Made by a program: the position numbers and the translations under genes. A stretch of 36,926 nt of DNA from Armatimonadota bacterium (GTDB lineage: Bacteria; Sysuimicrobiota; Sysuimicrobiia; Sysuimicrobiales; Humicultoraceae), in contig JAVKIA010000024.1 of assembly GCA_031459715.1 (NCBI GenBank), forward strand, positions 1 through 36,926, given 5' to 3'. Under the pieces are notes generated by a model, which worked only from the letters and a program-made list of their open reading frames with translations, ran no database searches and had not been told where the DNA came from. This document shows, piece after piece, positions 7,966 to 32,627 of this stretch (position 1 is its first letter; each line of letters starts with the position of its first letter).

Positions 7966-8052
7966 GGCGTCGGTTTGGTCCGCTTTTCGGCGCCCTATGC
8001 GCGACCCTCGAATGCGGGTATATTTTTCTTGATATCGTATTGGGGACGAATT

Positions 8053-8067
8053 GTCCGTATTTCGGAC
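8053..8067 (+). promoter_or_regulatory. Candidate IclR-type operator
   Basis: GTCCG-TATTT-CGGAC is a perfect 5-bp inverted repeat around a 5-nt AT-rich spacer, 24 nt before the IclR gene start. IclR-family sites are commonly 13-15 bp palindromes of this shape, so autoregulation of the cluster is plausible. A second half-site pair GGAC...GTCC (8044-8056) overlaps it. The flanking DNA (8019-8040) is markedly AT-rich for this genome, as expected for a promoter, but no convincing -35/-10 pair could be picked. Confidence 0.5.
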
Positions 8068-8091
8068 CACCCTTCTGGCCGGAGCACACCG

Positions 8092-8937
8092 ATGGGACGG
8101 GAGCAACGGCAGGCCGGCGGACAAGAGCGCGCCAGCAGCGGTACCGCAGACCGGGACAAGGTGAAGTCCCTCAACCGGGCGTTCACCCTCCTGATGGCGC
8201 TGGGCCAGGCCAGCCGACCCCTCTCCGTAGCCGAGCTCATCGTCAGGACCGGGCTTCCGCGGCCCACAGTGTACCGGTTAGTGCACACCCTGGAGTTGAA
8301 CGGGGCGGTGGTAGCCAGCGACGGCCGGTACGCCATCGGCCCCCGCGTCCTCTGGCTGGCGGGGCGGCGGCTGGGGCAGATTGAGCTGCGCGCGGCTGGC
8401 CGTCCCCACCTGGTGGAGCTGGCCCGGCGCACAGGGGAGACCGCCCACCTGGCCGTGCTGGAGCAGGGCCAGGTGGTCTACATCGACAAGGTGGAGTCGG
8501 GCGGACCGCTGCGCATGGCGTCTACCGTGGGGGCCATTATGCCTGCCCACTGCACGGCGCTGGGGAAGTCCATGCTGGCCTTCCTGCCTCCGGCACAACT
8601 GCAGGAGGTCCTGCGCACCCACGGGCTGCCCCGCCGCACGGCCAACACCATAACCGACCCGGCGCGCCTCCTGGCAGAGCTGGCCGCGGTCCGCGCCCGC
8701 GGCTACGCCATCGACAACGTGGAGAACGAGGAAGGCATCCGCTGCGTGGGCGCCCCGATCATGGACCACCGCGGCCAGGTCGCCGGAGCGATCAGCGTCT
8801 CCGGGTCGGTAGCCACCATCACCCTGGAGCGGGCGCGGCGCGAGCTCAGCCCCCTGGTGCGGGAGGCGGCGCAGCACATATCCCGGACCCTGGGCTGGAC
8901 CCAGCCCCCGGTCCGCTCGAGAGGAGGGGAACCGTGA
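8092..8937 (+). CDS. IclR-family transcriptional regulator
   Basis: 281 residues, slightly longer than the ~250-270 usual. Residues about 23-85 form the winged helix-turn-helix (L-S-V-A-E-L then T-G-L-P-R-P-T-V-Y-R-L-V-H-T-L). The rest is the IclR effector domain: G-E-T-A-H-L-A-V-L, V-Y-I-D-K-V, C-T-A-L-G-K-S-M-L-A, G-Y-A-I-D-N-V-E-N-E-E-G-I-R-C-V and G-A-I-S-V-S-G. Start at ATG 8092, with GGAG 8 nt upstream; a longer open frame from 7975 would run over the candidate operator. IclR proteins sense small acids and sugars and often control sugar-acid operons (KdgR type). Its stop shares one base with the next ATG (TGATG), so it is probably co-transcribed with the sugar-acid genes it controls. 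Confidence 0.9.
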   Translation: MGREQRQAGGQERASSGTADRDKVKSLNRAFTLLMALGQASRPLSVAELIVRTGLPRPTVYRLVHTLELNGAVVASDGRYAIGPRVLWLAGRRLGQIELRAAGRPHLVELARRTGETAHLAVLEQGQVVYIDKVESGGPLRMASTVGAIMPAHCTALGKSMLAFLPPAQLQEVLRTHGLPRRTANTITDPARLLAELAAVRARGYAIDNVENEEGIRCVGAPIMDHRGQVAGAISVSGSVATITLERARRELSPLVREAAQHISRTLGWTQPPVRSRGGEP

Positions 8938-9602
8938 TGGCAGAGGGCGCGGAGCTGTACACCCTGCTGGAGGGGTTCCGGGCTACAAGCACCGCATCCG
9001 TCGCCGATGCCGTCGACCGCGTGGTGCGGCGACCGGGGTTCATGAGCCATGAGATCAAGCCCATCCTGCCCGGCAGGATCGCCGGGCCGGCGGTCACCGT
9101 GCTGGAGCGAACCGCGCTGGAGGCCCAGCCACCACGCCACGCGCTGACGGCCATCGACGAGGCACCCGCGGGGAGCATCATCGTCATCGGCCTGGAGGAT
9201 GCAGGGGGCGCGCCGGAGGTGGCGCTGTGGGGCGGGCTGATGGCCTCGGCGGCTGCAACCCGCGGGCTGGGCGGTGCGGTGTTGGATGGCGGTGTGCGGG
9301 ACGTGGAGGAGATCCGCCAGCTGGGCTTCCCGGTGTTCTCGCGCACAATTGTCCCCTCCACCAGCGTGGGGCGGCTGGTCACCGTGGCCAGGGAGGTCCC
9401 CGTCCCCTGCGGCGGTGTCCTGGTCAACCCCGGAGACATCATCGTAGGGGACAGCGACGGCGTGGTGGTGGTGCCCCGGGCCGCGGCGGCAGAGGTGCTG
9501 GCCGCCGCCACCCAGATCGAAGAGACCGAGCGGCGCATGACCGCCCGCATCAGAGCCAGCGGGTCGATCCTGCAGGCGTTGCAGGAGTTCGGCCGGATCT
9601 AG
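8937..9602 (+). CDS. RraA/HMG-aldolase family protein
   Basis: 221 residues. The core signature of the family is present: L-G-G-A-V-L-D-G-G-V-R-D, with D117, R121 and D122 corresponding to substrate- and metal-binding residues of the 4-hydroxy-4-methyl-2-oxoglutarate/4-carboxy-4-hydroxy-2-oxoadipate aldolases, and later N-P-G-D-I-I-V-G-D-S-D-G-V-V-V-V-P. Older names call this family demethylmenaquinone methyltransferase, a misannotation. Members are class II pyruvate aldolases or oxaloacetate decarboxylases, as well as the RNase E inhibitor RraA. In this position, between an IclR regulator and a sugar-acid kinase, a retro-aldol cleavage of a 2-oxo acid giving pyruvate is likely, but this is inference. 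A GTG at 8934 could also start it; SD GAGAGGAGGGGA precedes. Confidence 0.82.
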   Translation: MAEGAELYTLLEGFRATSTASVADAVDRVVRRPGFMSHEIKPILPGRIAGPAVTVLERTALEAQPPRHALTAIDEAPAGSIIVIGLEDAGGAPEVALWGGLMASAAATRGLGGAVLDGGVRDVEEIRQLGFPVFSRTIVPSTSVGRLVTVAREVPVPCGGVLVNPGDIIVGDSDGVVVVPRAAAAEVLAAATQIEETERRMTARIRASGSILQALQEFGRI

Positions 9603-9611
9603 GAAGATCCC

Positions 9612-10577
9612 GTGCCCCACCTCATCGCCCTGGGAGAGGCGATGGCTGAGTTCGCCGCCGAGGAGCGGGGGCGCCTGGGGGAGGTGACCCGCTTCCGCCG
9701 CGGATGGGGCGGGGACACCTGCAACGTGGCTGTGGCCGCCGCCCGCCTGGGGGGCTCCGCGGGCTACATCACCCGCGTGGGAGGAGACGAGTTCGGCCGC
9801 TCCTTCCTGGAGCTTCTGGAGCGAGAGGGAGTCGACAGTTCCCGCGTGCTCGTCGACCCCGAGGGTTTCACCGGCGTCTACTTTATCTCCCTGGACGAAT
9901 CGGGGAAGCACGACTTCACCTACTACCGGGCGGGGTCCGCCGCCAGCCGCCTGCGGCCTGAGGACGTGGACCCCTCCTACCTGCAGACCGCCCGCATCTT
10001 CCACACCAGCGGGATCACCCAGGCGATCTCCGCAAGCGCCCGCGCTGCCGCCGCTGCGGCCATCGCCGCCGCTCGCAGCGGTGGGGTCACCGTGAGCTAC
10101 GACCTGAACCTGCGGCCCAAGCTGCTGCCGCTGCCCCAACTGCGGCCGGTGGTGGAAGCTACGCTCCCCCTGGTGGACATCGTCTTCCTGAGCACGGAGG
10201 ACGCCTCCTACCTGGATGGATCCAGGCCGGCGGAGGCCGTGGCGCTGGAGCTGCTGGCGCGCGGGCCGCGGCTGGTGGTGCTGAAGATGGGCGAGGAGGG
10301 GTGCCTGGTGGCCACGGCGGAAGGCTCGCCGCTGCGCCTGCCGGCCTATCCGGCGCGGGTGCTGGACAGCACGGGGGCGGGTGACGCCTTCGACGCGGCG
10401 TTTCTGGTGGAGTGGATGCGCGGGCGGCCGCCGGAGGAGGCGGCTCGTTTCGCCAATGCGGTCGGTGCGCTGGCAGCGGGTGGGCTGGGCGCGGTGGCGC
10501 CGCTGCCCTCGCGGACGGCGGTGGAAGCGTTCATGGCGGGAGGGGCTGAGTCCATGACGGAGGAGGGACGAGGATGA
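9612..10577 (+). CDS. PfkB-family sugar kinase, 2-keto-3-deoxygluconate kinase-like
   Basis: 321 residues from GTG 9612 (AGGAAGA upstream). Phosphorylates a sugar or sugar acid with ATP. N-terminal substrate motif G-G-D-T-C-N-V-A-V-A-A-A-R-L-G and the second PfkB signature D-S-T-G-A-G-D-A-F-D-A-A-F (residues 252-264; D258 the catalytic base) are intact. The opening G-E-A-M-A-E-F and length agree with KdgK, which makes KDPG from 2-keto-3-deoxygluconate in hexuronate breakdown; ribokinase- or fructokinase-like specificities cannot be excluded. The stop overlaps the next start by ATGA, so translation is coupled with the transporter genes. No separate KDPG aldolase is present in the window. Confidence 0.85.
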   Translation: MPHLIALGEAMAEFAAEERGRLGEVTRFRRGWGGDTCNVAVAAARLGGSAGYITRVGGDEFGRSFLELLEREGVDSSRVLVDPEGFTGVYFISLDESGKHDFTYYRAGSAASRLRPEDVDPSYLQTARIFHTSGITQAISASARAAAAAAIAAARSGGVTVSYDLNLRPKLLPLPQLRPVVEATLPLVDIVFLSTEDASYLDGSRPAEAVALELLARGPRLVVLKMGEEGCLVATAEGSPLRLPAYPARVLDSTGAGDAFDAAFLVEWMRGRPPEEAARFANAVGALAAGGLGAVAPLPSRTAVEAFMAGGAESMTEEGRG

Positions 10578-11662
10578 CGCAAAGAGCAAGGCGCATCAAG
10601 CGGTCCGCAGTCCTGGGGGTGCTGCTGATAATGGTCTTGGCGGTGCCGGCGGCGCAGGCCGCGCCGGTGCTGACGAAGGTACGAGCCGGGATCGTCGCGG
10701 CCATTGACCAGCTGGGCGTGCCGGTGGCCCTGGACCAGGGTCTGTTCGAGAAGTGGGGCCTGGAGGTGACCATCGCCACGCCCTACCCGACGGGGGTCGA
10801 CCAGTTGAACGCGCTGCAAGCTGGCGAGATCCAGATGGGCCAGGTGGGCGTCCCCATGATCGGAGCCGTCCTCCGGGGGATGGACCTGGTCATCGTGGGC
10901 AACTACAGCGGCTCCTCGGTGAAGCTGGGGGGCGACGACACCATGGCGCTGGTGGCGCGGCAGGGCAGCGGCATTCGCACCATCCGCGACCTGAAGGGCA
11001 AGCGGGTGGCCGTCTCCTTCGGCACCATCAGCCACCTGTACATACTGGGGATCCTGCAGCGGGCCGGGCTCGCCGTCACTGACCTTACCCTGGTGAACAC
11101 CCCGCCCGCGGAGATGGCCGTGGCCCTGCGTGGCGGGGCGGTGGACGCCTTCGCCACCTGGGACCCCTGGCCGGTGATCGCGCTGGCGGATGTGCCCAAC
11201 AGCTACGAGGTGGTCCGCGGCGGCGGGTTCATTGGGTTCATGGGGTTCAACGTGGCCATCCGCTCCTGGGCAGAGCGCAACCAGGAGACCATCGAGAAGT
11301 TCCTGGCCGCGCGCGCCGAGGCCGACAAGTTCATGCGCGCCGAGCCGGTGAAGACCGCCATCGTGGCTGTGCGCTGGCTCCCCGGGCTGCGGCCGGAGGT
11401 GGCCCTGCGGGGCGTGCGCAACAACCTGCCCACAGTGGACATCCGCATCTCCTGCTATAACTACCTGGCGCTGCATAACGCGGTGCAGACGCTCCACCGG
11501 CTGGGCTTCATCCCGGGGACCTTCGACGTGAACAAGGTCTTCATGCCGGGGCCGATCCTCAACGTGATGCGGCGCTACCCGCAGCTCTTCGCCGACCTGC
11601 CCCCGATCCCGTCCCGGGCGCAGGTTGGCCCGGGATTCACCTTCCAGGGGACGTGTCCCTAG
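10574..11662 (+). CDS. ABC substrate-binding protein, taurine/nitrate (NMT1/SsuA) type
   Basis: 362 residues. A basic N-terminus followed by a hydrophobic segment and A-Q-A-A gives a signal peptide of about 30 residues. The mature sequence has the SsuA/TauA/NMT1 pattern: L-D-Q-G-L-F-E-K-W-G-L-E-V, D-Q-L-N-A-L-Q-A-G-E-I-Q-M-G, I-R-T-I-R-D-L-K-G-K-R-V-A-V, and A-F-A-T-W-D-P-W-P. These bind sulfonates, nitrate, bicarbonate, thiamine precursors or aromatic acids. Such proteins sit outside the membrane and feed the adjacent permeases. Overlaps the kinase by 4 nt. The company of sugar-acid enzymes suggests an anionic sugar-acid ligand, which would be unusual for this class. Confidence 0.87.
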   Translation: MTQRARRIKRSAVLGVLLIMVLAVPAAQAAPVLTKVRAGIVAAIDQLGVPVALDQGLFEKWGLEVTIATPYPTGVDQLNALQAGEIQMGQVGVPMIGAVLRGMDLVIVGNYSGSSVKLGGDDTMALVARQGSGIRTIRDLKGKRVAVSFGTISHLYILGILQRAGLAVTDLTLVNTPPAEMAVALRGGAVDAFATWDPWPVIALADVPNSYEVVRGGGFIGFMGFNVAIRSWAERNQETIEKFLAARAEADKFMRAEPVKTAIVAVRWLPGLRPEVALRGVRNNLPTVDIRISCYNYLALHNAVQTLHRLGFIPGTFDVNKVFMPGPILNVMRRYPQLFADLPPIPSRAQVGPGFTFQGTCP

Positions 11663-11674
11663 GATGAGGGCCCC

Positions 11675-12514
11675 ATGACCCTGCGGAACCCTTCGGAGGT
11701 GGCGGCCGTAGCACCGGCGGCGCCGCGGCCGCGCCCCACCGCCCGGTACCTGGAGGCGGGGCTGTGGTTCGCTGCGCCCTTCGTCCTCCTGGTCCTGGTC
11801 TGGGCCGCGGTGGTCCGACTCTCCGACGTTCCCCTGCGAGTCTTTCCGGGCCCCGCGGATGTGGCCGGCGCGCTGCTGCAGCAGGCCCGCAGCGGCGCGC
11901 TGGCCGGTCACATCTGGCAGAGCCTGCGCCGGGTGCTGGTGGGGACCACGCTGGCGATCGCCTCCAGCATCCCCCTGGGTATCGCCATCAGCACCAACCG
12001 GCACGTCGCCGCCCTGTTTGTGCCCATCCTCCGCTTCTTCTCGGTGCTGGCGGGCATCGCCTGGATCCCCCTGGCCACTTTATGGTTCGGCTACGGCTTT
12101 GGGGCCATCACCTTCATCATCTTTAACGCCGTCTTCTTCATCGTCCTCTACAACACCATCCTGGGGGTCACCAGCATCCCGCAGGTGCTGCGGGATGCCG
12201 CCCGCTCCCTGGGAGCGAACCGCTGGCAGGTGCTGACCGAGGTGTTGCTGCCCGGAGCCCTGCCCAATATCGTCACCGGCATCCGCACGGGTATGGGCTT
12301 CGCCTGGCGCGGGCTGATCGCCGCCGAGATCATCGCCACCAACGCCGGGCTGGGCTACATGCTTTTCCTGGCGCGCGACTTCTACCGCACCGAGGTGATC
12401 GTCCTGGGGATGATTCTCATCGGGGCCATCTGGGTGCTGCTGGACCGGCTGATTCTGGCCCCCATCGAGCGCCGCACCATCGAGCGCTGGGGCCTGGCCC
12501 GCGCGCTGATATGA
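11675..12514 (+). CDS. ABC permease (SsuC/TauC type), first of two
   Basis: 279 residues with about six membrane helices: first near residues 28-46 (F-V-L-L-V-L-V-W-A-A-V-V). The cytoplasmic EAA loop that docks the ATPase is clear: L-R-D-A-A-R-S-L-G-A, followed by V-L-L-P-G-A-L-P-N-I-V-T-G-I-R. SD GATGAGGG precedes ATG 11675. It shares the whole family organisation with the next gene, and the two overlap by ATGA, so they probably form a heterodimer, whereas most transporters of this type use one permease as a homodimer. Confidence 0.88.
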   Translation: MTLRNPSEVAAVAPAAPRPRPTARYLEAGLWFAAPFVLLVLVWAAVVRLSDVPLRVFPGPADVAGALLQQARSGALAGHIWQSLRRVLVGTTLAIASSIPLGIAISTNRHVAALFVPILRFFSVLAGIAWIPLATLWFGYGFGAITFIIFNAVFFIVLYNTILGVTSIPQVLRDAARSLGANRWQVLTEVLLPGALPNIVTGIRTGMGFAWRGLIAAEIIATNAGLGYMLFLARDFYRTEVIVLGMILIGAIWVLLDRLILAPIERRTIERWGLARALI

Positions 12515-13311
12515 GGCCGCCCGGGCGCTGGCTGCGCCGCTTCCTCACTCACCCCGGCGTGCAGGGGGCGGGACCCTTCGTCCTCCTGGTTGTGCTGTGG
12601 GCGGTGGTGGTGCAGCTGGAGATCTACCCGCGGACCTTCTTCCCCGGCCCGCAGGACGTGCTGCGCGTCTTCGCCAGTCTGATGTACAAGGGCGTCCTGC
12701 CCACCTACCTGCAGGACAGCATCACCCGGCTGGCTGTGGGCGCCGGCGTGGGCATCTGCGTGGGCGTCCCCCTGGGACTGCTCATCGGCCTCCATGCGGC
12801 CAGCTACCGCTTCTTCTGGCCGCTGATCATCTTCTTCCAGGCCATCGGCGACATCGCCTGGCTGCCCATCTTGCTCATCTGGTTCGGCTTCACCCTCACC
12901 ACCATGACCTTCGTCATTGTCTACACGGTGATCTTCCCCATGATCTTCAATACGGCCCTGGGCGTGCGCACCGTACCCGTGGAGATGATCCGCGCCGCGC
13001 AGAGCCTGGGGGCTTCGCGCTGGCGTATCCTGGTGGAGGTGCTGCTGCCCGGCGCCCTGCCCAACGTGATCACCGGACTGCGCAACGGCCTGGGCTACGG
13101 CTGGCGGGCGCTGATCGCCGCCGAGATCATCGTGGGCACCAGCGGCATCGGCTTCATGATGTTCGACGCCCGGCGCAGCGGCAGTGTGGTGGAGATGATC
13201 CTGGGGATGATCCTGCTGGGCATCCTCTGGTACGTGGTTGACGCCTGGGTCCTCCGGCCCGCCGAGCGGGCCACCATCGAGCGCTGGGGGCTGGTGCGTC
13301 AGGCGTCCTGA
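12511..13311 (+). CDS. ABC permease (SsuC/TauC type), second of two
   Basis: 266 residues, multiple hydrophobic helices, EAA loop M-I-R-A-A-Q-S-L-G-A then L-L-P-G-A-L-P-N-V-I-T-G-L-R. The C-terminal R-A-T-I-E-R-W-G-L closely matches the end of the preceding permease (R-T-I-E-R-W-G-L), which indicates an old tandem duplication that then diverged. It starts four bases inside the previous gene and lies 11 nt before the ATPase. Membrane part of the same importer. Confidence 0.88.
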   Translation: MRPPGRWLRRFLTHPGVQGAGPFVLLVVLWAVVVQLEIYPRTFFPGPQDVLRVFASLMYKGVLPTYLQDSITRLAVGAGVGICVGVPLGLLIGLHAASYRFFWPLIIFFQAIGDIAWLPILLIWFGFTLTTMTFVIVYTVIFPMIFNTALGVRTVPVEMIRAAQSLGASRWRILVEVLLPGALPNVITGLRNGLGYGWRALIAAEIIVGTSGIGFMMFDARRSGSVVEMILGMILLGILWYVVDAWVLRPAERATIERWGLVRQAS

Positions 13312-13322
13312 AGAGTGGGACG

Positions 13323-14093
13323 ATGGACGGCCTGGTCATCCGCGATCTGAGCAAGACCTACTATGACATCTACACGGGGGAGCACGTGGCGGCCGTGGAG
13401 GCCGTCTCCCTGGAGATCGCTCCGGGGGAGTTCGTGGCCATCCTGGGCCCCAGCGGCTGCGGCAAGACCACCCTGCTGAACATGGTGGCGGGCTTCATCC
13501 CGCCCACCCGGGGGGAGATCCTGCTGAACGGACGGCGCATCCAGGGGCCTGGACCTGACCGCGGCGTCGTTTTCCAGAGCTTCGCCCTCTTCCCCTGGAA
13601 GACGGTCCTGGACAACGTAGCCTTCGGGCTGAAGATGCGGGGCGTGCCCCGGGAGGAGCGCTACCGCATCGCCCGGGAGTACATCGCTCTGGTGGGCCTG
13701 GACGGCTTCGAGCACCGCTACCCCCATGAGCTCTCCGGGGGCATGCAGCAGCGCGTCGGCGTCGCCCGCGTCCTGGCCAACAACCCGGACCTGCTGTTGA
13801 TGGACGAACCCTTCGCCAGCGTGGACGCCCAGACGCGCATGACGCTGCAGGAGGAGCTGACCCGCATCTGGGAGGCCCGCCAGCCCACCATTCTCTTCGT
13901 CACCCACGACGTGGAGGAGGCGGTCTTCCTGGCCAACCGCGTCGTGGTGCTTACTCCGCGTCCCGGGCGCGTGCGCGAATCGGTGGCGGTGCCCCTGCCC
14001 AGGCCGCGGAGCTGGCAGCACTTGATCGAGGACCCGGACTACAAGAGCCTGGTGGCGCGGGTGCTGGGGCTGGTGCGCGCGCCGGCGTCATGA
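13323..14093 (+). CDS. ABC ATPase (SsuB/TauB type)
   Basis: 256 residues. Hydrolyses ATP to power the importer encoded just upstream. Walker A G-P-S-G-C-G-K-T at 42-49, Q-loop F-Q-S-F-A-L-F-P-W, ABC signature L-S-G-G-M-Q-Q-R beginning at 137, Walker B L-L-L-M-D-E-P (D161, E162), and H-loop F-V-T-H-D-V-E-E-A. Length and the P-W-K motif agree with the nitrate/taurine branch. GTGGGACG precedes ATG 13323. Its stop overlaps the next small gene by 4 nt. Confidence 0.93.
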   Translation: MDGLVIRDLSKTYYDIYTGEHVAAVEAVSLEIAPGEFVAILGPSGCGKTTLLNMVAGFIPPTRGEILLNGRRIQGPGPDRGVVFQSFALFPWKTVLDNVAFGLKMRGVPREERYRIAREYIALVGLDGFEHRYPHELSGGMQQRVGVARVLANNPDLLLMDEPFASVDAQTRMTLQEELTRIWEARQPTILFVTHDVEEAVFLANRVVVLTPRPGRVRESVAVPLPRPRSWQHLIEDPDYKSLVARVLGLVRAPAS

Positions 14094-14434
14094 GGGTGCG
14101 GCGGCTCTTCGCCCGTCGGCCGGTGCGCCTCCTTCTCCTCCTGGTGCTGCTGGCCGGCGCCTGGCAGGGATGGCTGGCCTGCCAGGCCGGCCCGAAGATC
14201 CCTCCGGACCTGGAGCGCTACGCCTCTCCCCGGGGCACCGTGGACCTGCTGGTCATCCTGCGCTTCCCCCCGGAGCGGTTCCATATACTGACGTTCCAGC
14301 GCTTCGGCCGCGTCTCGGGGACGCGGGACAACGCCGTGGAGGTACGAAGCGTCCCTCTGGGACGGGTGCGGCAGATTGCCCGCTTCTACTGGGTGCGGCG
14401 TATCGCGCCGCTGCAGGAGGACACCCGCCTGTGA
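14090..14434 (+). CDS. Small single-helix membrane-anchored protein, unknown
   Basis: 114 residues. An Arg-rich start (M-R-V-R-R-L-F-A-R-R) precedes one hydrophobic segment at about 13-28 (L-L-L-L-L-V-L-L-A-G-A), then a ~85-residue soluble domain rich in Arg and aromatic residues (V-D-L-L-V-I-L-R-F, F-H-I-L-T-F-Q-R-F, A-R-F-Y-W-V-R-R-I). Positive charges before the helix put the domain outside the membrane. No known family recognised. It overlaps the ATPase stop by ATGA and precedes the transaldolase-like gene, so it is translated as part of this operon. It may be an accessory to the importer; a Cys at residue 31 after the helix leaves a lipoprotein possibility but does not fit a lipobox well. 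Confidence 0.6.
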   Translation: MRVRRLFARRPVRLLLLLVLLAGAWQGWLACQAGPKIPPDLERYASPRGTVDLLVILRFPPERFHILTFQRFGRVSGTRDNAVEVRSVPLGRVRQIARFYWVRRIAPLQEDTRL

Positions 14435-14498: not shown

Positions 14499-16682
14499 AT
14501 GACGCAGGAACAGGTTGAGGCGATCGTGGCCGACAGCCGCCCGGTGCGGCTCTCCGATGCGGGCAGGCGCCCCATCCCCGAGGACCACGTGGCGCACATC
14601 GTCCAGCTGGCCGGCTGGGGCCATGCCCCGCTGGCGGCCGACCACCTGCTGTTTCCGGAGATCACCGGGCGGCTGGTCGCGGTTGTGGGCGGTGTCATCC
14701 GGCAACTGGGGATGGACTTTGCGGCCGCCAGGCCTCATCCCGCCGACGGCCCGGTAGAGCTGGAACAGAAGGTACGCCGGCGGCAGTTCGCCTACAAGAC
14801 CCTCCTGGAGATGGCCGTCAACTTCTCGGGGCTGGAGAGCCGCTGGCTGGATGCGGAGGAGAAGCGACAGGCGGTGGAAGCCATCCGCGCCGCCCTGGCC
14901 GAGTGGGAGGAGCGGGAGCAGGCAGAAGGTGAGCTCTCGGTGGCGCAGGCGGTGGTGCGTCACTCCCTGGGGCGGATGAAGCTGGTGCAGGGTGGCGCGG
15001 GCATGGTGGCCCAGGCTGCGGTGCGCATGGAGCAGGCGCTGGACGGAAAGCGGCCGGTGCTGCCGGCCTACCTGGAGGCGGCAGCCGCGGAGATCGAGAG
15101 CAACATCTACGCCCGCATGGTGCGCGAAGGAGTCTGCCGCTTCGGCAACGACTACGCCCTGGGGCTGCGCTGGCTGCGCCACCTTGGATTCGAGCAGGTC
15201 TCCACTAACCCGGTGCTGGCGGCCCTGGCCTACAAGGACGACCCCGCGCTGGGCCGGATGTTCCAGGAGGAAGTGCGCCACCACCCCCGCTTCGCCCGGT
15301 GGGCCGGGGCCCCCGATCAGTTTGCCGACGAGATCGCCCTCTATGCCACCCTCCTGGCCCTGTGGGACAACCTGCACGTCTACCGGCCCATCTTCTTCAA
15401 CCTGGCTGCCGAGTCGGGGGGCGGGGTGGTCTCCTTCCAGCTCAACCCCCGCGTCGCCCACCTGGTGCGGGAGAGCATCGAGGACGTCTTCACCGCGTTC
15501 GCCGCGGCCGCCGAGGACCTGCGGGTCTACGATGACTTCCTGCTGGCCGGCTACCCGGCCACGCGGGAGCGGGCCCGGCCCAACATGGTGATCAAGGTCG
15601 CCGCCTCCTCTCCCGCGGCCCGGGAGATCGCCCGCAGCATCAACCGTCTGGGCATCGGCTCGAACATCACCCTGAGCTACAGCGCGGCGCAAGAGATAAC
15701 CATGGCCCTGGAGGAGCTGGCCGGGATGGCCGGGGCAGTGAAGAAGGGAATCGCCCCCACGCAGGTCTACGTCACCAACATGGGCGGGAGGCTGGAGAGC
15801 CACCTGCGCGAGGTGAAGCTGGAGGAGCTGTTCGCCGCGCTGAAGGCACGCCTTGGAGAAGCCGCCGCCCTGGAGCGGGTGCGCACGCTGGCCGCCGCCA
15901 ACGGCAGCGCTGCCCGCGTGGAGCAGGCGGAGGGCTACCAGGCCAAGGTGGTCGCGGCTACCCGCTACGCCCACCAGCGGCGGATCGACGCCCACCTGGC
16001 GGAGGCGCTGCGCGAGGTGGCATCGGCAGAAGAGCTGCAGCGCTGGGAGGAGGCCATCGGGCGTGCGGGGACCCTGGTGGCCCGCCGTGTCTGGGGCATC
16101 TTCTTCTCGCCGGAGAACCGGGAGAAGTGGCTGAGCTACCTCTGCCGTACCCACCGGTTGACCCGGGAGCAGGCCGAGCTGATCTTCAGTCGCATCTGCT
16201 ACCTGCCGGCCTCCAAACGCAAGCCGGAGGACACCTACTGGGCCCTGGCCGGCCGCAACCTGGTGCACACCGAGTTCCCCAACCACCAGGAGAACGTCCG
16301 CCGCATGGCTGCATCCGAGACCTTCCGGCTGGCAGACTACCGGGAGTCCATCGGCGCAGACTTCCCACCCGAAGTACTGGAGCGGCTGCAGACGATGGCA
16401 GACTTTCGCACCGCCTACGAGCTCACCCCTGAGCTGACCCAGATTCTGCGGGAGGTGGGCGTGGACGGAGACTTCGGCAGCGGTGGCCACACCCCCGAGC
16501 AGTGGCCGGAGTTTGGGCCGGTGCAGAAGACCCTGGCAGAGTTCACCGGGGCCTACGAGAATTTCCGCGCGGAGATGCTGCGCCTCTTCCGGGAGGTGCT
16601 GCCGGCCGCTCCACGGGCTGCCGCGCGGGGCAGGAGGCGTGCGGCCCTGAGCGGGGCGCGGTCGTCCCGGACACCCCGGTGA
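14499..16682 (+). CDS. Transaldolase-like protein, 727 residues
   Basis: Start ATG 14499 with GGAGG nine bases upstream. The middle (about residues 190-450) carries transaldolase features: F-E-Q-V-S-T-N-P (STNP 235-238, like the T-T-N-P of TalB) and P-N-M-V-I-K-V-A-A-S, in which K366 matches the Schiff-base lysine region, followed by G-I-G-S-N-I-T-L-S-Y-S and Y-V-T-N-M-G-G-R. Ordinary transaldolases are 210-330 residues and fructose-6-phosphate aldolases about 220; this one has roughly 190 extra residues before and 270 after. The flanks are helical with no recognised motifs. It overlaps the UxaE gene by 4 nt. An aldol cleavage or transfer on a sugar acid or its phosphate is a reasonable inference; the true substrate is unknown. 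Confidence 0.72.
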   Translation: MTQEQVEAIVADSRPVRLSDAGRRPIPEDHVAHIVQLAGWGHAPLAADHLLFPEITGRLVAVVGGVIRQLGMDFAAARPHPADGPVELEQKVRRRQFAYKTLLEMAVNFSGLESRWLDAEEKRQAVEAIRAALAEWEEREQAEGELSVAQAVVRHSLGRMKLVQGGAGMVAQAAVRMEQALDGKRPVLPAYLEAAAAEIESNIYARMVREGVCRFGNDYALGLRWLRHLGFEQVSTNPVLAALAYKDDPALGRMFQEEVRHHPRFARWAGAPDQFADEIALYATLLALWDNLHVYRPIFFNLAAESGGGVVSFQLNPRVAHLVRESIEDVFTAFAAAAEDLRVYDDFLLAGYPATRERARPNMVIKVAASSPAAREIARSINRLGIGSNITLSYSAAQEITMALEELAGMAGAVKKGIAPTQVYVTNMGGRLESHLREVKLEELFAALKARLGEAAALERVRTLAAANGSAARVEQAEGYQAKVVAATRYAHQRRIDAHLAEALREVASAEELQRWEEAIGRAGTLVARRVWGIFFSPENREKWLSYLCRTHRLTREQAELIFSRICYLPASKRKPEDTYWALAGRNLVHTEFPNHQENVRRMAASETFRLADYRESIGADFPPEVLERLQTMADFRTAYELTPELTQILREVGVDGDFGSGGHTPEQWPEFGPVQKTLAEFTGAYENFRAEMLRLFREVLPAAPRAAARGRRRAALSGARSSRTPR

Positions 16683-17923
16683 TCCTGCCCCCCTACAGCC
16701 TGGGCCTGGGGGACCGCTTTGGCCGCCAGGGGCGGGCGCAACTGGCGGCGGTGGTGGCGGCGCGGGATGTGGGCGTGGACCTGGCGCCGGTGTGGAACAA
16801 GTCTCACCGCGAGCACGCCATCACCGGGACGCAGCCGGCTGCGGTGCGCGCCGAGGCTGATGCGGCTGTGGCTGCGTTGGGCTGGACCGGGCCGTACTTC
16901 GTCGACGCCGACCACGTGACCCTGGGGACTGTAGATCCCTTCATCCCCGCGTGCGACTACTTCACTCTGGACGTGGCCGACTTCGTCGGCCGCCCGGCGT
17001 CGGCAGCAGAGATCGAGGCGTTCGTGGCCCGCTACGGGCACTTCGCCAGGGAGCGGAAGATCCCGGGGATGGACCAGGTGCCAGGCGACGTCGATGTGGC
17101 CGCCATCGCCGGGAGGTACCTGCTGGCAGCGCGGCAGGCAGGAGCCATCTACCGGCATATCGCCTCGTTGAGGGGCGCCGGAAACTTCATCACCGAGGTC
17201 TCCATGGACGAGACCGCCAGCCCGCAGACTCCCGTGGAGCTCTTCTTCATCCTCGCCGCGCTGGCGGAGGAGCAGGTCCCCCTCCAGGCCATCGCTCCCA
17301 GGTTCGTCGGCCGGTTCAACAAGGGGATCGACTACAGAGGCGACCTGGCCAGCTTCCAGGAGCACTTCCGCGCCTGCCTGGGGGTGATCGCCTTCGCCGT
17401 GCAGGAGCTGGACCTGCCGGCCACCCTCAAGCTGAGCGTCCACTCCGGAAGCGACAAGTTCTCGCTCTATGGGCCCATGGCCCGCATTTTGCGAGAGCAC
17501 CGGGCGGGGGTGCACCTGAAGACCGCCGGCACCACGTGGCTGGAAGAGGTGGCGGGGCTGGCCCTGGCCGGGGGAGAGGCGCTGCGGCTGGTGCAGGAGA
17601 TCTACGCGAGGGCCTACCAGCGGATCGAGGAGCTGAGCGCACCTTACGCCGCCGTGCTGGAAATCGACCGGTCTCAACTACCCTATCCGGATGTGGTGGA
17701 GAGGTGGTCGGGGGAAGAGTACGCGGCGGCGTTGCGCCACGATGAGGGCGCTGCCGCCTACAATCCCCACTTCCGCCAGCTCCTGCACGTGGCCTTCAAG
17801 GTGGCGGCGGAGATGGGCCCCGTCTACCTGCAGGCCCTGGACGCCCACGCCGACCTCATCGGCCCGCTGGTGACGGAAAACCTCCTGGAGAGGCACATCA
17901 GGCCTCTATTCCTGCAGCCGTAA
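16679..17923 (+). CDS. Tagaturonate epimerase family (UxaE-like)
   Basis: 414 residues if translation starts at GTG 16679, which overlaps the preceding stop (GTGA) and places P-P-Y-S-L-G-L-G-D-R-F-G at the N-terminus as in UxaE. No SD is near, so coupling is assumed; no better start exists. UxaE, first described in Thermotoga, interconverts tagaturonate and fructuronate in galacturonate breakdown. Family patterns seen: V-W-N-K-S-H-R-E-H, F-V-D-A-D-H-V, S-M-D-E-T, P-R-F-V-G-R-F-N-K-G-I-D-Y, and L-S-V-H-S-G-S-D-K-F-S-L-Y near residue 260. Histidines and acidic residues in these segments would bind a metal. Some members are of unknown specificity. It closes the sugar-acid operon. Confidence 0.82.
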   Translation: MILPPYSLGLGDRFGRQGRAQLAAVVAARDVGVDLAPVWNKSHREHAITGTQPAAVRAEADAAVAALGWTGPYFVDADHVTLGTVDPFIPACDYFTLDVADFVGRPASAAEIEAFVARYGHFARERKIPGMDQVPGDVDVAAIAGRYLLAARQAGAIYRHIASLRGAGNFITEVSMDETASPQTPVELFFILAALAEEQVPLQAIAPRFVGRFNKGIDYRGDLASFQEHFRACLGVIAFAVQELDLPATLKLSVHSGSDKFSLYGPMARILREHRAGVHLKTAGTTWLEEVAGLALAGGEALRLVQEIYARAYQRIEELSAPYAAVLEIDRSQLPYPDVVERWSGEEYAAALRHDEGAAAYNPHFRQLLHVAFKVAAEMGPVYLQALDAHADLIGPLVTENLLERHIRPLFLQP

Positions 17924-22292: not shown

Positions 22293-22312
22293 CCCGGAGG
22301 TTCCGGATCAGC
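22288..22312. terminator. Hairpin shared by two convergent genes
   Basis: GCTGACCCGGA (22288-22298), loop GGT, TCCGGATCAGC (22302-22312): 10 of 11 pairs match. It contains the stop codon of the isomerase (22290-22292) and that of the opposing epimerase (22308-22310). No T-run on either side, so it may be a factor-independent block only weakly, or an mRNA end-protecting structure working for both strands. Confidence 0.5.
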
Positions 22313-23147
22313 CCGACTGAGGACGAAAGAGCTGCCGCACAAACCCCAGGGCCTGCCGCGCCGCTGTCTCGAAGTCGGGTTCCAGCAGGATCTCCACGCC
22401 GACGGCGCCGTCGTAGCCGATCTCCCGCAGCGCCGCCGCCACCGCGGGGAAGTCCAGGTGTCCCCACCCCGGCGCCCTGCGGTTGCTGTCGGCCAGGTGC
22501 AGGTGGGCCAGGTGCGCGCTGCCCTGGCGTAGCGCATCGGGGAGGGAAGCCTCCTCGATGTTCATGTGGAAGGTGTCTGCCTGCAGGCGCACAGAAGGCA
22601 GGTCCACCTCCTGTAGAAGCGCCACCCCTTCCTCCACGGTGTGGATGAAGTCCGTCTCGTAGCGGTTCCCCGGTTCCACCAGGAGCAGCAGTCCTAGCTC
22701 CCCTGCTGTCATCCCGCACTCGCGGGTGGCGGCCACAAGGTGCTCCCGGGCCTGCTGCGGCGATGCTCCGGCGGGCAGCTTGCCCCGGACCAGGCCCAGG
22801 GAGACGAACCTCGCGCCCGCGCGCTGCGCGGATCGGAGGCAGGCCTGCACGGCGCGCACGGCCTGGCGCCGGACGTCATGGTCGGGATGGGTCAGGGTCA
22901 GGCCGCGTTCCAGGGCGATGAAGCCCGTAGCCAGGCCAAGAACCTGCAGGCCGCACCGTTGGGCGGCATCCCGCAGCGCCTCAGGAGTCGGATCCTCGAC
23001 GTCCCGGGGCATCAGCTCCACCGCGCCGAAGCCCAGGGCGGCCGTCCGGGCCAGGGCGTCCTCCAGAGCAAGGCCGCTGGCCGCCGCCCAAAAACGGGAA
23101 CCGGGCGCGGACAGGTAGAGAGATACCACCGGGATCCGCCCACTCAT
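22308..23147 (-). CDS. D-tagatose 3-epimerase-like ketose epimerase
   Basis: 279 residues from ATG 23147; a longer start at 23207 adds 20 residues not typical of the family. TIM barrel with the ketose 3-epimerase ligand set: E in L-L-V-E-P-G-N-R-Y-E-T-D, D in A-D-T-F-H-M-N-I-E-E, H in H-L-H-L-A-D-S-N-R-R-A-P-G-W-G-H, and E in V-E-I-L-L-E-P-D. D-T-F-H-M-N-I-E-E and S-N-R-R-x-P-G-x-G are specific to the D-tagatose/D-psicose/L-ribulose 3-epimerase group. It exchanges the configuration at C3 of a free ketose, using a divalent metal in the cytoplasm. It converges with the other TIM-barrel gene and is divergent from tctC with a 243-nt gap in which no gene was seen. Confidence 0.87.
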   Translation of the reverse strand: MSGRIPVVSLYLSAPGSRFWAAASGLALEDALARTAALGFGAVELMPRDVEDPTPEALRDAAQRCGLQVLGLATGFIALERGLTLTHPDHDVRRQAVRAVQACLRSAQRAGARFVSLGLVRGKLPAGASPQQAREHLVAATRECGMTAGELGLLLLVEPGNRYETDFIHTVEEGVALLQEVDLPSVRLQADTFHMNIEEASLPDALRQGSAHLAHLHLADSNRRAPGWGHLDFPAVAAALREIGYDGAVGVEILLEPDFETAARQALGFVRQLFRPQSG

Positions 23148-23390
23148 GGTGCTAACCCTGGCAGCCCACCTCGCAGCCTCCTTGGCCTGCTCAGCTCCGC
23201 ACCGCATCTCTCCAACACTTGCGGACCGGCTCTCCTCCTCAACTTCTCCCCCACGGCCGGGCCACCCTGCGGTCGGCGCAGCACTGCGCCCGTCCCTGCG
23301 GCAAAGCAGCGTCGCGGCAGCCTCCGCAGCCGGGCGGCCGCCGCCTGCAGTAGAATGGGGGCGGGCCCTGAGGCGGCCGGAGGTGAGACC

Positions 23391-26332: not shown

Positions 26333-27157
26333 ATGGACGGTCTGCCGCAGAGCCAGCTCATCCCTGCCGCGGCGGAACTGCCGGGGATCCGCCCGGTAGC
26401 CCGTCCGCCCGGCAGCCCGCTGCGCTTCCTCGAGTTTGCCCTGGTCACCCTGGGCCCGGGCGAGGATTCGCTCGCCTGGATCTCCGGTGACCGGGAGGCG
26501 GTGCTCTACCTGATCGGCGGCGCCTGCCGGTACGCGGTCTCGGGCGCCGGTTCGCTTGAAGGGGTCCTGGATTCGCGTCCCGCCCTCTTCGAAGGCCCAC
26601 CTTCGGCCCTCTACCTGCCGCCGGGCGCGCGGCTGCGCCTCACCGGCCAGGATGGCGCGCGCCTGGCCCTGTTCACCGCTCCTCCGGTCGCTGATCGCCC
26701 GCCCCGCGCTGTCTTGCCAGATGAGGTGAGCGAACGCAGCGTGGGCAGGGAGGCCTGGGCGCGCACCGTGCGCAGCGTGATCGACCAGCGCACGGCCAGC
26801 CGACTCCTGGTGGGGGAGACCATCAACCGGCCGGGGGCCTGGTCCAGCTACCCCCCGCACAAGCACGATGTCCACGTCCCCGGCCGAGAGGTACCCATGG
26901 AAGAGGTCTACCACTTCTTCGTTCGGCCCCCCGGGGGCTTCGGCTTGCAGATGGTCTATACCGCGCCCGATGTGCCCGATCCGTTCGAGCACATCTACCG
27001 GGTGCGTCAGGGGGACACCGTGGTGATTCCGCGGGGCTACCATCCGGTGGTGGCGGCCGGCGGCTACCACCTGGCCTACCTCTGGGCCATTTCAGGCGAA
27101 CGGGTGGACTATGGGGCGTGGAACAACGACCCGGCCCACGCCTGGCTGGTGGGGTGA
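26333..27157 (+). CDS. 5-deoxy-glucuronate isomerase-like protein (IolB family)
   Basis: 274 residues, SD GGAGG nine bases upstream. A bicupin with a clear second-domain signature: G-E-T-I-N-R-P-G-A-W-S-S-Y-P-P-H-K-H-D (metal-ligand histidines 176 and 178), M-E-E-V-Y-H-F-F, G-G-F-G-L-Q-M-V-Y-T, and P-R-G-Y-H-P-V-V-A-A-G-G-Y. IolB turns 5-deoxy-D-glucuronate into 2-deoxy-5-keto-gluconate in inositol breakdown; KduI is a distant relative. No other Iol genes lie in the window, so a related sugar acid could be the substrate. Ends overlapping the HAD gene (TGATG). Confidence 0.88.
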   Translation: MDGLPQSQLIPAAAELPGIRPVARPPGSPLRFLEFALVTLGPGEDSLAWISGDREAVLYLIGGACRYAVSGAGSLEGVLDSRPALFEGPPSALYLPPGARLRLTGQDGARLALFTAPPVADRPPRAVLPDEVSERSVGREAWARTVRSVIDQRTASRLLVGETINRPGAWSSYPPHKHDVHVPGREVPMEEVYHFFVRPPGGFGLQMVYTAPDVPDPFEHIYRVRQGDTVVIPRGYHPVVAAGGYHLAYLWAISGERVDYGAWNNDPAHAWLVG

Positions 27158-29540: not shown

Positions 29541-29696
29541 GTCTTTGTGGACCTCCCACCAGGATTCTGCTCTTCAGTATAGGATGGCCGGACTGCGCCG
29601 TCGTCTGTGAGCGTGAAGGAGGGAGTTAAGACTTGCCGAAAACACCGAAAATACGCATGGGGGTTCCTGTTGGCCAGGGTTGCGCCAGGACAGCGG

Positions 29697-32627
29697 ATGG
29701 GTGCGCGCGGGCAAGAACGGGTGGCCAAGCGCTCGGGCGTGCTCCCATCTCCCCGCAGCAGTCTCATCGGCCGTGCCGCCGAGACTGACGCCGTCACAGA
29801 GATCCTGCTCCGTCCTGAGGTCCGTGTCGTCACTCTGACGGGCGCACCGGGCATCGGCAAGACCCGGCTGGCGCTGGAGGTAGCGGGCAGGCTGGCCGGC
29901 CGCTTCTCCGGCGGTGTCGCGTTCATCGACCTGAGCGCGGTGACGGATCCGGTTGCCGTTGGCGCGGCGATCGCCCAGTCCCTGGGCATTCGCGAAGTCT
30001 CCTCACAGCCGCTGGTGGACACGCTGCGGGACGCCATAGCGGAACAGCGGCTGCTGCTGGTCCTGGATAACTTCGAGCAGGTTCTTCCGGCTGCCCCCGT
30101 GGTGGCCGAGCTGCTGGACGGCTGCCCTTCCCTGACGGTTCTCCTGACCAGCCGGGCGCCGCTGCGGATAAGAGGCGAGCAGGAGTTCCCTGTCCCCCCA
30201 CTGCCGCTCCCCGAAGAGAGGTCGGCGGCGGAGCCGCGGGCCCTGCGCGAAGTGGCCTCGGTCGCCCTCTTCGTGGAGCGGGCGCGGGCGGTGCGTCCGG
30301 ACTTTACCCTGACATCTGCCAACGCGGCCGCCGTGGCCGACATCTGTGTTCGCCTGGACGGTCTTCCCCTAGCCATCGAGCTCGCCGCGGCGCGGGTGAA
30401 GCTGTTGACGCCGGCCGGAATCCTGCGGCGTCTCCGCTCCAGCCTGGACCTGCTGTCCCGGCAGTCGCCCGACGTTCCGCCGCGGCACCGGACGCTGCGG
30501 CAGGCCATCCGCTGGAGCTACGACCTGCTGGAGGGCGGCGAGCAGGTGTTGCTCCGCCGTCTGGCGGCCTTCAGTGGTGGGGCGGCGCTGGATGCCGTGG
30601 AGGCGGTTTGCCGGGCGGAGACGGATCCTGCAGGGAGCGTCCTCGATGCGCTCGGCTCCCTTGTGGAGAACAGCCTCCTGCTGCACGATCCCCAGCCGGA
30701 CGGCGAGTCCCGCTTTCGCATGCTGGAGACGGTCCGCGAGTTCGCCCAGGAGGAGCTGGAGGCGTCCGGGGAGGGACCAGCACTCTGGGAGCGCCATGCC
30801 GCGCATTTCGCGCAGCTGGCCCAGGCCGCGGAGCCCGCCCTCGCTGGACCCGACCAGGCCGTCTGGCTGGAGCGCCTCGAGCGCGAACATGACAACTTCC
30901 GGGTGGCGCTGGCATGGTCGGCGGAGGCCGGGCGTGCGGAGACCGGCCTCACCATCGCCATCGCCCTGGGGCGCTTCTGGGAGCGGCACGGTTACTCGGG
31001 GGAAGGTCTCTCCTGGCTGCAGCGGTTCCTGGCTATGGCGCCCCTGGCGCCGGCCGCCCTGCGGGCGACGGCCCTGAACATCGCTGGCAACCTGGCACGC
31101 AGCCGAGGCGACTACGGTCTGGCGGTTTCCTCATACGAACATACGCTGGCGCTGCGACGGGAAGCACAGGACGCGCGGGGGATAGCCGTCGCCCTGAACA
31201 ACCTGGGGGTGGTGGCGAAAGACCAGGGGGACTACGTGCGGGCGCGCGCCTTCCTCGAGGAGAGCCTGGCGATAAAACGTCGGGAGGGAGACCGGCGCGG
31301 CGTCGCCGTCACCCTGAGTAACCTGGGGCTGACAGCCAAAGCGCAGGGCGACCTGGCCGCCGCGGCGGCCTTTTTCAGCGAGAGCCTTGGCCTCTTCCAG
31401 GGGCTCGGCGACACCTGGGGCCAGGCGCTGTGCCTGAACAACATGGGCACGTTGGCCTTTGCCAGCGGCGACGTTGAGCGTGCCCTGGCGCTGCATAAGA
31501 CCAGCCTCGCCGGGCGACGCGCCATGAAGGAGAAGTGGGGCCTGGCCGAGTGCTTGGAAGGCCTGGCCCGGGTCGCGGAGGTGATGGGGGATCCCGAGGG
31601 CGCCGTCCGCCTCCTGGGTGCCGCCGACCGGCTCCGCCAGGTCCACGGATTCCCGCTGCCGCCGGACGAGCGGGCGCCGCTGCAGCGTCTGGTCGCAGCC
31701 CTGCGCAGCGCGCTGAGCGAGGACGCCTTCCGCGTTGCCTGGGACGCCGGGCAGGGATGGAGTCCGGAGGAGGCGCTGGACGCTGGCCTCGCCCTGCAGC
31801 CGCCCTCAACTCCTCCCGCTGCCCATTCCACAGCGCGTGTGCGCATTTACTTGCTCGGCCCCTTCCGCCTGGTGGTGGACGGGCGGCCCGTGTCGGATAC
31901 GGTCTGGGGACGCCCGGCGGCCTTGACCCTCTTCCAGTACCTCCTGCTGAATCGCCACCGCTACGTCTCTGCCGAGGAGCTCGCGGAGACCTTCTGGCCC
32001 CAGGCGCCTTCGGTGGAGACCACTGCTGTCTACACCACCATCTCCCGTGTGCGCCGCGCCCTGCGCAGCCTCTCGCTGCCCGCCCAGCTGGAGCTTGTCC
32101 GGGAGCATGTCGGCTACCGGCTGCGGGTGGCAGCGGAGGTGTGGCTGGACGTCGATACCTTCATGCAGGCGCTACAGCGGTGCGGGCGGAGCGGAGAGGG
32201 CGAGGAGATCGCCGCGCTGACGGAGGCGCTGGCCCTCTATGAGGACGACCTCCTGGCGGGCTCCGATGCAGTCTGGTTCCTGCAGGACCGTGAGGCGCTG
32301 CGCCGCCGGTGGGCGCAGGCTTGCCTGCACCTGGCCGGCCTCCTCGAGGGACGGGGGCAGGCGGACGAGGCGATCGCCGTCTACGCGCAGACGCTGTCCC
32401 GGGAGCCGCTGCTCGAAGCCGCGCACCGGGGACTGATCCGCTGCTACGCGCATACGGGTCGGCGGGATCTGGCTTTGCGGCAGTATCGCCTCTGCGTCGA
32501 GGTGCTCGCTCGCGAGCTCGATGTGGCACCTGAGGAGGAAACCCAGGCGCTCTACGAAGCCGTGAGCGAAAGCCGTCGGATCCCGCTGCCGTCCCCGCAA
32601 GGGGCGGCGGTGTTCCCGTCCGGATGA
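29697..32627 (+). CDS. NB-ARC/TPR/BTAD transcriptional regulator, inverted domain order
   Basis: 976 residues from ATG 29697 (AGGA six bases upstream; GTG 29607 gives 30 more residues but has no SD). Domains: ATPase with Walker A G-A-P-G-I-G-K-T at 49-56 and Walker B L-L-L-V-L-D-N-F-E; NB-ARC helical part up to about 340 (R-H-R-T-L-R-Q-A-I-R-W-S-Y-D-L-L); at least four 40-residue TPR units around 450-670 (A-L-N-N-L-G-V-V, S-N-L-G-L-T, L-N-N-M-G-T); then an OmpR-type winged helix from about 714 (R-I-Y-L-L-G-P-F-R-L, W-G-R-P-A-A-L-T-L-F) and a BTAD domain to the end. Actinobacterial AfsR carries winged helix and BTAD first. It is an ATP-dependent signal-sensing DNA-binding regulator. Target unknown. 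Confidence 0.88.
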   Translation: MGARGQERVAKRSGVLPSPRSSLIGRAAETDAVTEILLRPEVRVVTLTGAPGIGKTRLALEVAGRLAGRFSGGVAFIDLSAVTDPVAVGAAIAQSLGIREVSSQPLVDTLRDAIAEQRLLLVLDNFEQVLPAAPVVAELLDGCPSLTVLLTSRAPLRIRGEQEFPVPPLPLPEERSAAEPRALREVASVALFVERARAVRPDFTLTSANAAAVADICVRLDGLPLAIELAAARVKLLTPAGILRRLRSSLDLLSRQSPDVPPRHRTLRQAIRWSYDLLEGGEQVLLRRLAAFSGGAALDAVEAVCRAETDPAGSVLDALGSLVENSLLLHDPQPDGESRFRMLETVREFAQEELEASGEGPALWERHAAHFAQLAQAAEPALAGPDQAVWLERLEREHDNFRVALAWSAEAGRAETGLTIAIALGRFWERHGYSGEGLSWLQRFLAMAPLAPAALRATALNIAGNLARSRGDYGLAVSSYEHTLALRREAQDARGIAVALNNLGVVAKDQGDYVRARAFLEESLAIKRREGDRRGVAVTLSNLGLTAKAQGDLAAAAAFFSESLGLFQGLGDTWGQALCLNNMGTLAFASGDVERALALHKTSLAGRRAMKEKWGLAECLEGLARVAEVMGDPEGAVRLLGAADRLRQVHGFPLPPDERAPLQRLVAALRSALSEDAFRVAWDAGQGWSPEEALDAGLALQPPSTPPAAHSTARVRIYLLGPFRLVVDGRPVSDTVWGRPAALTLFQYLLLNRHRYVSAEELAETFWPQAPSVETTAVYTTISRVRRALRSLSLPAQLELVREHVGYRLRVAAEVWLDVDTFMQALQRCGRSGEGEEIAALTEALALYEDDLLAGSDAVWFLQDREALRRRWAQACLHLAGLLEGRGQADEAIAVYAQTLSREPLLEAAHRGLIRCYAHTGRRDLALRQYRLCVEVLARELDVAPEEETQALYEAVSESRRIPLPSPQGAAVFPSG

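Follow-up and report, generated by a model that had tools for sequence, protein, structure and literature searches.

The window analysed here, a stretch of 36,926 nucleotides from an Armatimonadota bacterium, encodes a long transaldolase relative, real and conserved but uncharacterised, which we call TALx, and its gene overlaps that of a UxaE-family epimerase. By sequence TALx belongs to the transaldolase superfamily, within a Gln-type branch that has yet to be characterised. We give an even chance to the proposal that it works as a class-I (Schiff-base) aldolase or transaldolase directly after UxaE, splitting D-fructuronate into tartronate semialdehyde and a dihydroxyacetone unit.

A long relative of transaldolase

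The gene and the parts of its product are as follows.

14499 to 16682, + strand: TALx gene, complete with stop, for a 727-aa protein of the transaldolase superfamily, Gln-type
14499 to 15095, + strand: N-terminal region, residues 1-199; helical in the model, conserved, unique to the long TALx form
15096 to 15818, + strand: first part of the transaldolase barrel, residues 200-440, by homology and alignment
15819 to 16103, + strand: insert of ~95 aa (residues 441 to about 535) that separates strands 6 and 7 and that relatives of ~370 aa do not have
16209 to 16280, + strand: last two barrel strands, ASKR 571-574 and TEFP 591-594, by alignment
16299 to 16598, + strand: C-terminal tail, residues 601-700, common to Gln-type transaldolases (FR..YE ... 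FG.V.KT..F..AY)

Translation of the open reading frame gave 727 amino acids and confirmed the STNP motif at 235-238 and the N-M-V-I-K366-V-A-A segment named in the sequence-only reading. The frame is already open from a TTG at 14376, the ATG at 14499 being the preferred start; both start and frame are borne out by the purine-rich, strong ribosome-binding site that precedes it (GGGAGGCAGAGGGAG-ATG), by homologues starting near the same ATG and by codon composition, the GC content at third codon positions (0.89) being similar to that of neighbouring genes. Full-length orthologues at 42-68% identity argue against a chance or mis-joined frame. The normal transaldolase of this genome, encoded on another contig, has 223 amino acids, thus TALx is more than three times as long, where more than twice the normal length had been claimed.

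A Pfam search with TALx returned TAL_FSA as sole match (residues 226-405, with 26.1 bits just short of the cut-off of 27), and the same family (PF00923) was matched by 12 of the 13 aligned TALx members, the best at 1.6e-21. Profile-profile comparison with hhalign linked TALx to Gln-type transaldolases (E=3.2e-21 over residues 200-699) and these in turn to TalC-type transaldolase (E=3.2e-26), a chain that, together with Pfam, supports the homology proposed earlier; in a profile search of the PDB every match was a transaldolase, BmSF-TAL being one of them.

Full-length relatives, at the identities given above, occur in four phylum-level groups. A contig scan placed TALx in three Methylomirabilota contigs and a genome search in 5 of 95 Methylomirabilota genomes, 1 of 43 of its own phylum, 5 of 7 of a third phylum (two of those partial) and 3 of 17 of a fourth, while the plasmid, phage and viral collections searched held no relatives. 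Among eleven aligned TALx sequences, the most distant at 44% identity, 169 positions are invariant and scattered over residues 18 to 689; therefore the whole length of the protein is under selection. In three members (L033, L034 and L038) the surroundings consist of housekeeping genes. The Methylomirabilota proteins (L005, L006, L025) end in long Ala/Lys-rich tails, the tail in the window being Ala/Arg-rich.

Residues 200-700 align end to end with Gln-type transaldolases of ~370 aa, which means that the C-terminal part supplies the rest of the barrel together with the tail of the clade: ASKR aligns with the transaldolase ASFR strand, which carries the phosphate-binding Arg228, and TEFP falls on the last barrel strand. 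What TALx has beyond its shorter relatives is residues 1-199, the insert of ~95 residues and a short basic tail. Both flanks had been described as devoid of any recognised domain; this stands for residues 1-199 and fails for the C-terminal ~270, which are the last barrel strands and the clade tail. A new C-terminal domain was accordingly rejected, and with it the idea of a two-domain enzyme, residues 200-700 being one elaborated transaldolase chain.

It is also quite improbable that TALx is a transaldolase fused to two unrelated new domains. The N-terminal 199 residues, for which a PDB profile search found no relative at E<10, speak for such a fusion; the alignment of residues 200-700 throughout with the ~370-aa transaldolases, last strands and tail included, speaks against it, and on this comparison its C-terminal side appears mostly refuted already. 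The N-terminal region shows conserved L45-A-A-D-H49, R95, E104, N108 and E113. It was helical in an AlphaFold2 model of low confidence (full TALx, four-sequence alignment, mean pLDDT 49.1); residues 195-705 modelled from an alignment of four sequences gave a mean pLDDT of 47.2.

The active site of TALx

15150 to 15152, + strand: D218 codon, equivalent to TAL Asp17 and FSA Asp6 in the hhalign columns; invariant
15201 to 15212, + strand: STNP motif, residues 235-238, by translation and alignment
15438 to 15440, + strand: Q314 codon, at the position of TAL Glu96 and FSA Gln59 by alignment
15594 to 15596, + strand: K366 codon, predicted Schiff-base lysine, from alignment, PDB profile match and invariance
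15780 to 15782, + strand: M428 codon, at the position of TAL Phe178 and FSA Tyr131 by alignment

The strands of residues 200-440 carry D218, STNP, Q314, K366, T391 and TNMGGR 426-431, and thus the catalytic set of the superfamily is kept (D218, STNP, K366, T391 and GR 430-431). Wherever the sequence is present, D218, N237, Q314, K366, T391, R431 and R574 are invariant across phyla; this invariance and the alignment support Lys366 as the probable Schiff-base lysine, as first suggested. A new aldolase class had been considered possible as well. The catalytic set is that of class-I Schiff-base enzymes; TALx is a new subfamily and not a new class.

Could TALx simply be an isozyme of the classical transaldolase of the pentose phosphate pathway (EC 2.2.1.2) with extra regulatory segments? 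The barrel and the Arg residues of the phosphate site are kept, as such an isozyme would need; however, Glu96 is replaced by Gln and Phe178 by Met in all TALx, nine of the nine TalC-type sequences compared having Glu and Phe. Moreover, TALx is tied to UxaE and not to transketolase, and most TALx genomes hold a separate match to the transaldolase family, for which reason the idea of TALx as the sole transaldolase of its genomes was also rejected. We regard the isozyme as slightly less probable even than the fusion. Least probable of all is a transaldolase-derived scaffold or regulator without enzyme activity, binding UxaE or its product: the extra conserved helical region of ~200 residues without known relative would suit it, whereas the full catalytic set, Lys366 included, is invariant over 42-68% identity.

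In FSA, Gln59, Thr109 and Tyr131 hold the catalytic water, and residue swaps in this water network interconvert aldolase and transaldolase (PMC13259622). TALx keeps the Gln and the Thr and has Met428 in place of Tyr131, so it is neither FSA nor a classical transaldolase; with Met at the proton-shuttle position of both enzymes, its chemistry may differ.

Relatives of 360-400 aa from the same genomes likewise have Gln at the Glu96 position and, in most, Met at the Phe178 position (6 of 7). Gln plus Met and a common C-terminal tail form the signature of what we here name the Gln-type clade, and TALx carries all of it. We know of no activity for any Gln-type transaldolase found here. Those examined for surroundings (L088-L094) have TRAP or ABC sugar transporters, an FGGY-type kinase and Zn-dehydrogenases as neighbours. 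In genome G372 (L036:4132-7428) a Gln-type transaldolase of 462 aa, intermediate in length between TALx and the shorter relatives, immediately precedes a second, diverged UxaE-like gene; the run to which they belong also includes TRAP and ribose-type ABC transporters.

UxaE, inositol genes and the possible source of substrate

The genes around TALx in the window are listed below.

7975 to 8937, + strand: IclR-family regulator, first gene of the same-strand run
8934 to 9602, + strand: RraA-like aldolase/decarboxylase family protein
9612 to 10577, + strand: sugar kinase of the PfkB family, closest to the models for KDG/KDGal kinase and IolC but under the cut-off of each
10574 to 14093, + strand: SsuA/NMT1-type ABC transporter (binding protein, two permeases, ATPase)
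14090 to 14434, + strand: predicted membrane protein of 114 aa, no Pfam match, just upstream of TALx
16679 to 17923, + strand: UxaE-family epimerase, divergent subfamily, 414 aa; its GTG start overlaps the TALx stop
22308 to 23207, - strand: IolO-like (5-keto-L-gluconate epimerase), second copy, 214.6 bits (cut-off 300)

The translational coupling of TALx to UxaE, already proposed, takes the form of a start/stop overlap, GTGA, in which the GTG of UxaE at 16679 overlaps the TGA of TALx (16680-16682). The epimerase matches Pfam PF16257 with 162.5 bits (cut-off 27.1), a divergent score as full-length UxaE exceeds 500 bits, and matches the UxaE structure 6il9 from Cohnella at 2.6e-26. Members of this subfamily (~415 aa; the window copy and L060-L064) are devoid of the first ~80 model positions, and in L062 and L064 they adjoin UxaC in hexuronate operons.

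A UxaE-family gene was found in all 13 TALx genomes, and in G372, against a background of 34 in 386 genomes; all four full-length TALx genomes of the background set have it (hypergeometric 5e-5, or 6e-4 without the genome of the window, both values uncorrected for kinship within phyla). The order is TALx-UxaE in the window, L004 and L025 and UxaE-TALx in L035 and L032, two opposite arrangements that occur in different phyla. The intergenic DNA measures 0.26 kb in L004 and 1.1 kb in L025, which leaves the window and L035 as the only cases where co-transcription is likely. TALx lies apart from UxaE in G063, G066, G393, G256, G481, G482 and G494, where the substrate of UxaE is an assumption.

In the classical pathway UxaE is fed by the galacturonate isomerase UxaC. 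Of the 13 TALx genomes 11, that of the window included, lack this gene and two have it, counts to be read in the light of the incompleteness of metagenome-assembled genomes; a classical hexuronate supply can thus not be assumed, and the classical pathway was rejected as the setting of TALx in most genomes. A motif scan for UxuA, UxaB/UxuB and UxaA over 2.03 of the 2.76 Mb of the window's genome found none, a weak result from a scan run without positive control.

Inositol genes were found in the three of the 13 TALx genomes that could be checked. In G311 (L035), from a different phylum, IolN, UxaE and TALx are contiguous, and in G494 (L070) a run comprises PPi-phosphofructokinase, IolM, an alcohol dehydrogenase, IolN and UxaE. 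The genome of the window, examined over the same 2.03 Mb, has a Thermotoga-type inositol cluster on a contig other than that of TALx (C1, ~81-101 kb; L123, L124:398-1297). It contains IolM (564 bits, cut-off 450), a rhizopine/ribose-type transporter, an IolG-like gene (155.6 bits with the inositol 2-dehydrogenase model, cut-off 355), IolN (532 bits, cut-off 245) and IolO (296 bits, just below the cut-off of 300), and ends in hydroxypyruvate isomerase (333 bits, cut-off 353) and tartronate semialdehyde reductase (386 bits, cut-off 341). This IolO scores better than the IolO-like copy in the window, which is located ~4.4 kb past the end of UxaE.

A ketose acid, the kind of substrate put forward in the sequence-only reading, is supported as the likely one. 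Another ketose or ketose acid, with UxaE as a general ketose 4-epimerase beside TALx, seems rather unlikely to us; examples would be 2-deoxy-5-keto-gluconate, tagaturonate, 5-keto-L-gluconate and a phosphorylated or unphosphorylated hexulose. In its favour are the lack of UxaC in most TALx genomes, the housekeeping surroundings of L033, L034 and L038, and, within the window, an IolB-like gene and the PfkB kinase near IolC. Nevertheless, the steps of IolM, IolN and IolO end in tagaturonate, and for a three-carbon product that carries the carboxylate one would expect an enzyme such as tartronate semialdehyde reductase; moreover, the constant partner of TALx is UxaE and not IolB.

The IolB-like gene (5-deoxy-glucuronate isomerase, 26333-27157, 167 bits, cut-off 205) follows a TctABC-type transporter, and a 1006-aa open reading frame at 29607-32627 resembles an ATPase-TPR regulator with a C-terminal SARP-like domain. 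The upstream ABC transporter, RraA-like and PfkB genes are not accounted for by the inositol/uronate route proposed below. A sulfonate substrate, which the SsuA-like transporter upstream of TALx might suggest, is mentioned as a remark, as no sulfosugar genes were seen and the family of this transporter is broad.

A possible route and its known counterparts

IolO-type enzymes convert 5-keto-L-gluconate into D-tagaturonate (PMC12632266), and UxaE interconverts tagaturonate and fructuronate (PMC6353982). In the route that we propose, IolG-like, IolM and IolN would oxidise and open inositol, or a derivative, to 5-keto-L-gluconate, from which IolO would make D-tagaturonate; inversion of one centre by UxaE would then yield D-fructuronate, whose configuration resembles that of fructose and is of the kind accepted by transaldolase-type enzymes. 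A Schiff base would arise between Lys366 of TALx and the C2 ketone, and cutting between C3 and C4 would release C4-C6 as tartronate semialdehyde. The dihydroxyacetone unit might be passed to glyceraldehyde-3-phosphate, giving fructose-6-phosphate, or be freed, and the Gln of TALx is compatible with free release instead of transfer. Tartronate semialdehyde reductase and hydroxypyruvate isomerase of the inositol cluster would take up the other product, and the phosphofructokinase of the G494 operon would return fructose-6-phosphate to triose phosphates.

The choice of products follows from structure: fructuronate differs from fructose in having a carboxylate at C6, so a transaldolase-type lysine enzyme that cuts it between C3 and C4 can only produce a dihydroxyacetone unit plus tartronate semialdehyde, and the reductase that ends the inositol cluster of this genome has the latter as its substrate. 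As a whole, a new route from inositol through D-tagaturonate and D-fructuronate to tartronate semialdehyde by TALx cleavage or transfer, bypassing the reductase-dehydratase-KDG-KDPG branch, is offered tentatively, its chance falling a little short of even. To our knowledge, all known hexuronate routes past tagaturonate or fructuronate reduce the ketose acid and run through KDG, and our literature search found no report linking transaldolase with cleavage of either compound. If true, keto-uronates would have a second logic of C-C cleavage in direct splitting by a transaldolase, a uronate counterpart of the sulfo-TAL pathway; such splitting would also assign a role to a transaldolase branch that carries no name so far and occurs next to sugar transporters, and would account for genomes with UxaE and inositol genes but without UxaC.

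Regarding known systems, the Thermotoga IolG-IolM-IolN-IolO pathway is the one whose IolM, IolN and IolO models are matched at or near cut-offs by the genome of the window; as described, and as far as we know, that route has no transaldolase step. The epimerase belongs to the same Pfam family as UxaE of Thermotoga and Cohnella (6il9), although the window copy is shorter, of a divergent subfamily and in a genome without UxaC. The Gln-type proteins annotated as "transaldolase family" (L079-L084, L086; Pfam TAL_FSA) share with TALx the Gln, mostly the Met, a QxNP/QxDP motif and the C-terminal tail, but are devoid of the 199-residue N-terminal region and the ~95-aa insert. FSA has the Gln59, Thr109 and Asp/Asn/Lys set likewise present in TALx (roles in PMC13259622), while TALx differs in its Met, is three times longer, and the FSA substrate is a phosphate. 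SqvA removes the C4-C6 part bearing the C6 anion, transferring dihydroxyacetone from sulfofructose to glyceraldehyde-3-phosphate to make fructose-6-phosphate (PMC12890257). TALx is proposed to act alike, by dihydroxyacetone transfer through a lysine Schiff base, whereas SqvA/BmSF-TAL (PDB 8bc3, 8c4i) is a TalC-type chain of ~220 aa with a sulfonate substrate and weak sequence similarity to TALx.
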